Origin: Parvularculaceae bacterium
GTDB taxonomy: Bacteria; Pseudomonadota; Alphaproteobacteria; Caulobacterales; Parvularculaceae
Direction: 5' to 3'
DNA length: 64,000 nucleotides
Assembly (NCBI GenBank): GCA_028284065.1
Contig: JANQSJ010000008.1
Coordinates: 248,001 to 312,000, forward strand
The notes below the pieces were generated by a model, which worked only from the letters and a program-made list of their open reading frames with translations, did not search any database and had not been told where the DNA came from. Both the position numbers and the translations under genes were made by a program. Of the stretch, positions 12,914 through 16,675 are shown piece after piece; within the stretch, counting starts at the first letter, position 1; the number at the start of each line of letters is the position of its first letter.

Positions 12914-14143
12914 ATGTCGACGCAAGCCAAGAAATCAGCCGCAAAATCCGCCGTCGCCGCGCTGCCGATCCTGATCGGCGGTCTCGCGCTCGCCGCGTGC
13001 TCCGGAGGGGCGGAAGCGACCGCGCCTGCGGCGGGGGCCGCGAAAGGCGGCGGCGATCCGGCGCTGCAGAAAACGCTCGCCGAGCCTGCGCCCGAGGGCG
13101 CGCTCGACCTCAATATCGAGACGCTCGCCGAAGGGCTCGAAAACCCCTGGGCGATCGCCTTTCTCCCCGACGGGGACATTCTCATCTCCGAACGCCCCGG
13201 CCGCATTCGCATCGTCCGCGACGGCGCGCTCGTCGAGACGCCGGTTGAAGGGGCGCCGGAGGTTGTGGCCTGGAACCAGGGCGGGCTCTTCGATATTCTA
13301 CCGCACCCGGACTTTTCGGAGAACCGCACGCTCTTCATCGCGTACGCCAACGGCACGCGCGAGGCGAACGCGACGCGCATCGCACGGGCGACCTTCGACG
13401 GCGCGAGCCTCAGCGACGTAACGCCGATTTTCGACGCCATCCCGGCGAAGGACACCGGGCACCATTTCGGCGGCAAGCTCGTCTGGGGTCCCGACGACAA
13501 GATCTATCTCACCGTGGGCGAAGGCTCGAAATACAAGGAGCGCGCCCAGGAAATGGAGACGAGTTTCGGCGCCGTCATCCGCATCAACGAAGACGGCTCG
13601 ATCCCCGACGACAACCCGGACTTCGGCCCGGGCGCGGCGCCGGGGCTTTACTCCAAAGGCCACCGCAATCCGCAAGGACTCGCCTATGACGCCGGCCGAG
13701 GCGTCCTTTGGGAGAATGAGCACGGCCCCCGCGGCGGCGACGAGATCAATATCGTCGAGCCCGGCGTGAACTATGGCTGGCCGCTCGCGTCCTACGGCAT
13801 CGACTATAACGGCGCGCGGATTACGCCGTTTACGGAATATGAGGGCACGCGGCAGCCCTTCAAATACTGGACGCCGTCAATCGCGCCGTCGGGCCTTGCG
13901 GTCTATCGCGGCGACGTTTTCCCCGCCGACTGGGACGGCGATCTTCTTGTTGGCGCGCTGGCGGGCGCGGCTCTCCACCGGGTCGACCTTGACGGCGAGA
14001 CCGAGGTCGGCGAGGAGCGCTACGATATTGGCGGCAGGGTGCGCGACGTGCGCGTCGGACCCGACGGCGCGATCTACGCGACCACCGAAGCGCGCGGCGG
14101 CGATCCAGTGGGCAAGCTCCTGCGCATCACGCCGGCCGGGTAA
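12914..14143 (+). CDS. PQQ-dependent sugar dehydrogenase, lipoprotein
   Basis: A soluble aldose dehydrogenase of the six-bladed beta-propeller family (GdhB/YliI type), expected to oxidise sugars in the periplasm using pyrroloquinoline quinone. The 409-residue protein starts at the ATG at 12914 (AGAGGA 9 bases upstream) and has a lipoprotein signal ending LALAAC, then an Ala/Gly linker. Family motifs: ENPWAIAFLPDGDILISE, the His of GHHFGGKLVW, KGHRNPQGLAYD, ENEHGPRGGDEIN and PGVNYGWPLASYG. Sugar preference is not readable. It converges with the BCCT transporter gene. Confidence 0.9.
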   Translation: MSTQAKKSAAKSAVAALPILIGGLALAACSGGAEATAPAAGAAKGGGDPALQKTLAEPAPEGALDLNIETLAEGLENPWAIAFLPDGDILISERPGRIRIVRDGALVETPVEGAPEVVAWNQGGLFDILPHPDFSENRTLFIAYANGTREANATRIARATFDGASLSDVTPIFDAIPAKDTGHHFGGKLVWGPDDKIYLTVGEGSKYKERAQEMETSFGAVIRINEDGSIPDDNPDFGPGAAPGLYSKGHRNPQGLAYDAGRGVLWENEHGPRGGDEINIVEPGVNYGWPLASYGIDYNGARITPFTEYEGTRQPFKYWTPSIAPSGLAVYRGDVFPADWDGDLLVGALAGAALHRVDLDGETEVGEERYDIGGRVRDVRVGPDGAIYATTEARGGDPVGKLLRITPAG

Positions 14144-14170
14144 AGACGCGCCCACGCCTGACGAAAGGCC

Positions 14171-15793
14171 TCAGCGCGGCGCGTCTGACGCGCCGCGGGC
14201 GTCCGGATGCTGATTAATAGCGGCGGCGGGCTGCGCCATCAGTCGCGCAAGCGCCACAAGCGACCCGATCAGAATAAGAAGCCCCGGCGCGCCGCCGAGA
14301 TTGGACAGCATGCGCACCCCGTCGACGCCGTTGGTCGCGGTCATCAGCCAGGCGACCGCGCCGATCAGGACGCCCCAGAACACCTTGATCCAGAGCCCCT
14401 CGCCGGCCGCTTCTTCCGCCTGCCGCTCAGGCGCCAGACACACGCTCGCAATCGAATGGGTGTTGGAGTCCATCGCGGTGACGAAAGAGACAAAGGTCGT
14501 GAACAGAAAGATCGCGACCATGACCGCCGCAAGCGGCAATGCGCCGAGCACGGCGTAAATGACGCCTTCGGGCCCCCGCGCCTCGAGCGCAGCAGTCACC
14601 GCGCCGCCGGACGCCTCATCAATGCCGATCGCCGCGCCGCCGAAGATCGACATCCACACGACGCCGAATACCGCCGGCAGGACCATGGTGAAAAGGACGA
14701 ATTCCCGCACCGTGTAGCCGACGGAGATCCGCCCCAGGAACAACGCCGTGATCGGCGCCCAGGCCGCCCAGTTGGCGAAATAGAACATCGTCCAATCGCG
14801 CCGCCACTGATCGTCGCCTGCGCCTGGCAACGGCGCCGAGCGAGGCAGGAACGTCGCCGCGTACTCGCCGACCCCGGCGGCTGAAGCGGAGAGTATCTTT
14901 ATCGTCGGCCCGGCGAAAAGAACGAACGCCGCCAGCAAAAAGAAAAACCGGATGTTGACGTCCGATAGAATGCGGATGCCGCGCTGCAGCCCGCTGATCG
15001 ACGACACGACGAATGTCATAACGATCGCCATGCTGACGATGAGGCGGGCGAGCGGGCCGTCAGGCAGGCCGAACGTCGACGCAAGGCCGTCGGCCAGCGT
15101 CATCATGCCGGCGCCGAGCGAGGCGGCGACGCCCGCGGTAAGCGCGAAAAGCGCGATTGCGTCGAGAAACGCCGCGCCCTTGCCCTTCGCGGCGTCGCCG
15201 ATGGCGAAACGCATTGGCGCGCTTAAGGAATAGGGCCTGCCGAAATTGTAATAGGCGAGCGCGAAAGCGAGCGCCGGCGCGGCGTACATGGCGTAGGGCG
15301 TAAACGACCAGTGCAGATAGAGCGTCGCCAGCGAAAAGCGCGCCGCCTCGGGCGTGCGCGCCTCGGCGCCCGAAAAAGCGGGCGGCCCATTGAAGTGCAT
15401 GATCGGCTCAGCGACGCCCCAGAAGAGGATGCCGGTCGCGATTGTGGTACACAGAGTAATGGAGAACCAGTTCCAGCGGCTGAGGATTGGCAGAGCGGCC
15501 GCGCCGCCAATGCGCACGCCGCCCAAGGGCGAGACGACGACAGCGAGCATGGTGAGGACGGCCGCGAATGAGCCGAACGAAAACGCCCATCCGACGGTGT
15601 CCAGGACGCCCTCATGCGCCGCCGTCGCGACCGCCAGAAACCCGTCGAAATCAATGAGGCTCGCGGCGACGGCGCCGAGGAGGATCAGCGCCGGCGGCCA
15701 GAAGACGAGGGGACGGATGCGCCGGAACGCGGCGAATATCGGCGGCGTCGATGCGAGCGGGCGGGATTGGCTCGGCGTGTCGGACTGAGAGAT
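14171..15793 (-). CDS. BCCT family transporter (start codon uncertain, possible frameshift)
   Basis: Sodium- or proton-coupled transporter of the betaine/carnitine/choline family, inner membrane. Recognisable segments: ILFWGVAEPIMHF, LHWSFTPYAMYA, and the substrate-site helix around MFYFANWAAWAPITALFLGRIS. The first ATG in frame, at 15550, would remove the first transmembrane helix. The frame stays open and protein-like upstream (RRIRPLVFWPPALILLG and onward) back to a stop at 15836-15838, but that stretch holds no ATG, GTG or TTG. The coordinates given assume an ATC start at 15793, which has GGAGAAG about 5 bases upstream and gives 540 residues. Alternatives are a one-base indel joining the ATG at 15824 in another frame, or a disrupted gene. 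The usual Trp-rich box of helix 8 is partly replaced by Phe, Asn and Ala, so the substrate may not be betaine or choline. Confidence 0.7.
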   Translation of the reverse strand: MSQSDTPSQSRPLASTPPIFAAFRRIRPLVFWPPALILLGAVAASLIDFDGFLAVATAAHEGVLDTVGWAFSFGSFAAVLTMLAVVVSPLGGVRIGGAAALPILSRWNWFSITLCTTIATGILFWGVAEPIMHFNGPPAFSGAEARTPEAARFSLATLYLHWSFTPYAMYAAPALAFALAYYNFGRPYSLSAPMRFAIGDAAKGKGAAFLDAIALFALTAGVAASLGAGMMTLADGLASTFGLPDGPLARLIVSMAIVMTFVVSSISGLQRGIRILSDVNIRFFFLLAAFVLFAGPTIKILSASAAGVGEYAATFLPRSAPLPGAGDDQWRRDWTMFYFANWAAWAPITALFLGRISVGYTVREFVLFTMVLPAVFGVVWMSIFGGAAIGIDEASGGAVTAALEARGPEGVIYAVLGALPLAAVMVAIFLFTTFVSFVTAMDSNTHSIASVCLAPERQAEEAAGEGLWIKVFWGVLIGAVAWLMTATNGVDGVRMLSNLGGAPGLLILIGSLVALARLMAQPAAAINQHPDARGASDAPR

Positions 15794-15933
15794 CGGTCTT
15801 CTCCGGCGGCGCGCCCGCCAGCATGCGACCGCAGGTCATTAGACCCGATCGGCCGCGACTACGCAAAAACCAACGGCCAGACAGCATTAGCGCCGGCAGT
15901 CGGCGCTGCGTCTTGCGTCAACGCCGACAGATT

Positions 15934-16131
15934 TCAGCCGTCGTCCTCGTCAATGATCGGGGTCGTTGACGGGTCGCCGTCATAGGCCTCCTCGAGAGGA
16001 TCAAACTTGCCGTCCCCTTCGACGATTTCATCGGCGGCGACTGCGCCCGCGCCAATGAGCGCGGCGACGCACCCAGACGATAGGGATGCGACGGCGACAA
16101 GAAACGACAACTGCGCAACACGTTTGATCAT
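15934..16131 (-). CDS. Small hypothetical lipoprotein
   Basis: A 65-residue secreted lipoprotein: signal peptide MIKRVAQLSFLVAVAS followed by the lipobox LSSGC (Cys about residue 21), a short Ala/Gly hydrophobic stretch, and an acidic tail (GDGKFDPLEEAYDGDPS, ending DEDDG). An AGGAAAAGG site precedes the ATG. It lies downstream of rpsP on the same strand, where rimM and trmD are often found. Function unknown. Confidence 0.72.
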   Translation of the reverse strand: MIKRVAQLSFLVAVASLSSGCVAALIGAGAVAADEIVEGDGKFDPLEEAYDGDPSTTPIIDEDDG

Positions 16132-16261
16132 GGCCTTTTCCTTTCAAGAAAGTCATCCGCCGCCGCCATGGCGACAGGTTGCATCAATACCGCCAGCCGG
16201 AGGCGCAATCCGAAGATCGCCCCGCCGACTTGACGATTTATTGACGGCCCGGACCGCGGAT

Positions 16262-16675
16262 TTATTCCGCGGCCGCCTCTTCGGCGGGCGCCTCTTCCGC
16301 CGGGGCGGCGGCGGCTTCTTCCTTGGCGGCTTTGGCGGCGGCTTCTTTTTCGGCCTTTTCCTCCGCGCGCTGCTTGGCTTTTTCGCCAGGCTCCGCCTTC
16401 TTCGGATTATTGCCGCGCTCCCACTTTACCAGATCCTGGGCGGCGAAGAAGCGCGCGACGCGGTCGGTGGGCTTGGCGCCGACGCCGAGCCAGTGCTTGG
16501 CGCGGTCGACGTCAAACTGGATGCGCTTTTCGTCATCCTTGGCGAGGAGCGGGTTGTACGCCCCAATTTTCTCGATGAAGCGGCCGTCCCGCGGCATGCG
16601 GCTGTCGGCGACGACAATCGAGTAGTAAGGGCGCTTCTTCGCGCCGCCCCGGGCGAGTCTTATCTTTAGGGACAT
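16262..16675 (-). CDS. rpsP: 30S ribosomal protein S16
   Basis: Small-subunit ribosomal protein that stabilises 16S rRNA folding. The N-terminal 80 residues are the complete S16 domain ([33 protein letters not shown]). A C-terminal extension of about 50 residues rich in Lys, Glu and Ala follows, common in alphaproteobacterial S16, making 137 residues in all. AAGGA lies 9 bases before the ATG. In the usual order ffh-rpsP-rimM-trmD-rplS this is the second gene; here an extra gene sits between ffh and rpsP, and rimM/trmD do not follow. Confidence 0.97.

Follow-up and report, generated by a model that had tools for sequence, protein, structure and literature searches.

The window, a stretch of 64,000 nucleotides from a Parvularculaceae bacterium, carries a long reading frame for a BCCT-family transporter with no conventional start codon at its N-terminus, which raises the question of where its translation begins. 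The preliminary description had stated that no ATG, GTG or TTG lies in frame between the upstream stop and position 15550, and this was borne out when the frame was read from 15835 to 14171 on the reverse strand (554 codons from stop to stop). Two readings had been offered: that an ATC at 15793 is a rare natural start, or that a one-base indel separates the gene from an ATG at 15824. The features of the locus are shown in Table 1.

The transporter frame

The Pfam BCCT profile (PF02028) aligns its positions 1-482, out of 485, with residues 44-533 of the frame, and its 400 bits lie far above the gathering cut-off of 27. Because the match spans these residues, the beginning of the domain would be lost if translation started at 15550 (residue 96). 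This next canonical codon lies 51 codons beyond the anchor residue F45. In a 464-kb sample of the same genome, the 62 codons that precede the first canonical start in this ORF rank second among 320 ORFs judged to be coding; the sole longer stretch belongs to a 247-codon ORF that is possibly spurious.

Judged by the profile match, the gene product is a BCCT-family secondary transporter, and the closest solved chain by sequence is 9vbn (E 5.9e-59). PF02028 is common to this gene and the BetP/BetT-type BCCT transporters, but the gene differs from them in scoring under the cut-off of every NCBIfam BCCT model that it matched, including the glycine betaine equivalog NF047988 (311 bits versus a curated cut-off of 650), and in an altered motif. 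The FFWAWW stretch of the solved choline transporter 9vbn is FYFANW here, a variant also found in the clade consensus. This variant may indicate a substrate other than betaine or choline.

Table 1. Features of the transporter locus, in window positions
Feature	Position	Strand	Basis or remark
BCCT-family transporter gene	14171..15793	-	540 codons + stop, from the proposed ATC start
Proposed ATC start codon	15791..15793	-	SD spacing and comparison across 34 orthologous loci
Shine-Dalgarno (SD) core GGAG	15801..15804	-	7 bases (AAGACCG) ahead of ATC
Upstream in-frame stop of the BCCT frame	15836..15838	-	Read from sequence
Out-of-frame ATG, judged irrelevant	15822..15824	-	No conserved counterpart among orthologs
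Possible promoter TTGCGT-17-TCTAAT, weak	15838..15866	-	By eye; would give a leader of ~38 nt

The start codon among orthologous loci

Orthologs were sought in 62 Parvularculaceae genomes, and 34 loci were found in 33 genomes, one of which has two. A scan of named genomes, in which the members of Parvularculaceae included Marinicaulis flavus and Amphiplicatus metriothermophilus, returned 41 loci: 32 duplicates of known loci, three new outgroups and six that were left out (the incomplete locus L124 and five Firmicutes loci with 31-33% identity). To find the start, the DNA was read back from the conserved RPLVFWPP block. The codon at this position was ATC in 25 loci, ATT in seven and GTC in one, with none in the remaining locus; ATG was found there in 0 of the 34. 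The locus of M. flavus SY-3-19 (L107, identical with L043) is among those with ATC. The common layout is GGAG or a near variant, mostly 6 to 9 bases, ATC or ATT, and then coding sequence, with an SD and ATC or ATT present in 32 of 34 loci. The alignment with orthologous loci, proposed earlier as a check, thus decides in favor of the ATC at 15793 and supports its reading as a rare natural start.

In the gene itself, the GGAG gives an SD duplex of -6.6 kcal/mol, the strongest among the listed candidate starts. A duplex of -5.5 kcal/mol or lower was found at 32/34 proposed starts versus 7.2% of the remaining in-frame codons, and the proposed start had the strongest or tied-strongest SD among the candidates in 28/34 loci (all except L035, L036, L037, L042, L055 and L056). 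GGAG occurs no more than 20 nt from the start codon in 31/34 loci; the exact motif is absent from L044 and L055. These energies were calculated with an anti-SD sequence that we take to be the relevant one, and a pattern search of this genome for the 16S end gave no match. The distance from the start to F45 is mostly 13 codons, with 30 in this gene, 23 in G001, 17 in G021 and 29 in G010. In these four, the SD shifts along with the start codon, which was picked there by SD strength and hence is not independent of the SD criterion.

Conservation at each codon position was counted in the 26 loci of genus g2, the other eight being left out for genus or differing spacing. Identity at the three codon positions was 0.27/0.28/0.27 upstream of the start, 0.92/1.00/0.59 at the start codon, and 0.52/0.71/0.37, then 0.86/0.87/0.55, downstream. 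By this measure, codon-like conservation starts exactly at the ATC/ATT codon; apart from the SD, what precedes it is random. Relative to the start codon, the GGAG falls in the three frames in 8, 14 and 9 of 31 loci. Since it is found in all three frames, the GGAG is a signal to the ribosome rather than part of a peptide motif.

Three loci deserve separate mention. L038 has GTC at the start position with AAGGAG ahead, a codon known from Streptomyces sigR. L035/L088, from the isolate genome of A. metriothermophilus, has neither ATC/ATT with a good SD nor a convincing canonical start; its start is possibly CTG, or has possibly been lost. L053 contains an internal TAG and is either a pseudogene or an assembly error.

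The same procedure was applied to infC, a classic example of non-AUG initiation, for which 30 loci were read from 56 genomes with a match. One was cut by a contig end, and the 29 readable starts were 24 ATA and 5 ATC, with the same start-to-SD spacing as in the transporter loci. The infC gene of this genome (G000:C18 near 486070, L065) has an apparent ATA start behind GGAG. BCCT paralogs were used as a negative control, and a canonical in-frame candidate was present in 16/16 loci, about half with a fair SD. Some paralogs have their best SD at ATT, CTG or another codon and, therefore, SD strength alone cannot identify starts. The case for the transporter start rests on SD strength combined with conservation, and it is through comparison of sequences that the start position and its conservation are established.

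Competing explanations were weighed against these data. The true start could be a canonical codon, upstream or downstream, that varies by species, with the conserved isoleucine internal to the protein. In keeping with this, 16/34 loci have some in-frame ATG, GTG or TTG upstream of the proposed start (15 of them also with an identified ATC/ATT start), and several have a GTG or TTG shortly downstream. However, coding conservation is absent upstream of the codon, many loci have in-frame stops 4-20 codons upstream, in 18/34 the stretch from the in-frame stop to the ATC, ATT or GTC is free of canonical codons, and the first canonical codon of this gene lies inside the domain. In L040, L049, L055 and L059, one upstream ATG sits within a promoter-like GCTATG box; in the rest of these loci, an individual upstream codon might still act as the start. 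An internal isoleucine was rejected because the SD travels with the codon and the upstream sequence is without coding signal, and we consider it very unlikely. The second reading of the preliminary description, a one-base indel arising from sequencing error, pseudogene formation or phase variation, has in its favor the ATG present out of frame at 15824. This frameshift was rejected on ortholog comparison. Genomes that were assembled independently likewise lack a canonical start and have an SD with ATC/ATT in its place; conservation of the reading frame runs from the ATC onward, and neither an out-of-frame ATG nor a slip site is conserved among the orthologs. An indel is, accordingly, the most improbable of the explanations weighed here. 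Another possible explanation is that the clade has a variant initiator tRNA that reads AUC and AUU efficiently. This is highly improbable as well, since infC also has non-AUG starts, which fits ordinary IF3 autoregulation, and the neighboring rpsP frame has an ATG with an SD. We conclude that translation of the BCCT transporter very probably begins at an AUC behind a good SD, a weak start that is conserved in the clade.

Origin and possible role of the weak start

The 34 loci group in a single clade on the protein tree, with support of 100/100. If outgroups count as canonical and L035 is omitted, the tree requires one change from a canonical to a non-canonical start, seven changes among ATC, ATT and GTC, and none to ATG. 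The three outgroup loci (Kordiimonas and Rhodobacteraceae records) have ATG, and 18 order-level loci have mostly TTG, ATG or GTG candidates; TTG lies at -19 in 8/10 loci of family f2. Two AT-rich loci among these 18, L082 and L083, have ambiguous starts, with a weak SD at ATT/ATC. We read this as a single acquisition of the AUC/AUU start in the clade ancestor and its retention since then, because AUC or AUU (GUC in one case) persists in orthologs throughout the family.

At such a start, the initiator fMet-tRNA would pair with two of the three bases of AUC, and the first residue would be formyl-methionine. Initiation would be inefficient and, as for infC, under repression by IF3, with the strong SD offsetting the weak codon. 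This would serve to limit synthesis of the transporter and to tie it to the activity of IF3. By analogy with sigR, ccpN and cvfC1, the transporter would be made at a low, IF3-sensitive rate; that IF3 exerts this control is inferred from codon type only. The weak start is probably kept by selection, with IF3 repression of the kind shown for sigR. For a family of marine bacteria, the conserved weak AUC/AUU suggests deliberate throttling of the amount of transporter. It is also conceivable, if rather unlikely, that the weak start is real and non-regulatory, having arisen in one ancestral event and been tolerated ever since as a start of low expression. The single origin on the tree agrees with this. 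On the other hand, there were at least seven substitutions within the codon, never to ATG in 34 loci, while the strong SD was kept, and the infC of the same genomes, under presumed IF3 control, shares the design.

A tie between osmotic conditions and the transporter start, suggested by the usual role of the BCCT family, is speculation. Still more tentatively, infC and the transporter might form a small IF3-controlled set in Parvularculaceae through which solute uptake is wired to initiation fidelity, an idea that we regard as doubtful. If it is true, transporter synthesis would respond directly, and with no dedicated regulator, to shifts in IF3 activity or in the ions of the cytoplasm, such as osmotic stress brings about.

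Starts other than AUG, GUG and UUG are very rare, and the few conserved cases that we met are in translation, RNA or regulatory genes. An AUU start reportedly limits a second chromosomal gene of E. coli, pcnB, which is like the transporter in its start and different in its product, said to be poly(A) polymerase. A survey reports one switch from AUG to AUU among 61,358 ancestral AUG starts (PMC5622118). IF3 discriminates against near-cognate starts. The infC gene itself starts with ATT in E. coli and ATC in Streptomyces, as described in PMC5472188. Like the transporter gene, infC has a clade-conserved near-cognate start with a third-base mismatch and a good SD, but it encodes the autoregulated IF3 itself. 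Streptomyces sigR likewise has a conserved non-canonical start, the GTC also seen in L038, but encodes a sigma factor, and its start and its repression by IF3 were proven experimentally according to the same source (PMC5472188). The ccpN (AUA) and cvfC1 (AUU) genes of S. aureus, whose starts are reported to reach ~10% of the activity of AUG and, in ccpN, to vary with the medium, also combine conserved non-canonical starts with a strong SD; they encode a repressor and a small protein and were mapped by ribosome profiling (PMC13009471).

The transporter gene has two hallmarks of the infC, sigR and ccpN class, namely a near-cognate codon behind an SD where no usable canonical start exists, and conservation throughout one clade. 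Of the 32 loci with ATC/ATT, 15 also have an in-frame canonical codon farther upstream. The literature search brought up no paper describing an AUC/AUU start in a transporter, whether BCCT or another. The gene joins this small known class and is, within the literature searched, the first transporter there, so its family-wide conserved start extends the class to transport. Gene callers probably misplace or truncate the N-termini of these proteins, since only ATG, GTG and TTG are allowed. The transporter start also offers a simple test for IF3 control of a gene set.

Upstream region and neighbors

A consensus sigma-70 scan of 13900-16300 did not find a promoter. In genus g2, a promoter-like block (TTTGG, a spacer of 16-18, GCTATG) is clearer than in this locus; it scored at least 9 of 11 in 20/27 g2 loci versus 3% of mononucleotide shuffles, a comparison that is partly circular because the motif was derived from the same sequences on which it was scored. 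Folding of the leader RNA of this gene was not better than that of shuffles (z 1.03 and -0.50). Some g2 genomes carry a tRNA-Thr(CGT) gene ~100 bases upstream of the transporter, on its strand (L043 3113-3188, L044 1289-1364). In the window, the upstream neighbor on the same strand (15934-16131) is a small ORF that is lipoprotein-like and has no Pfam match, and a similar reading is also present in G001.
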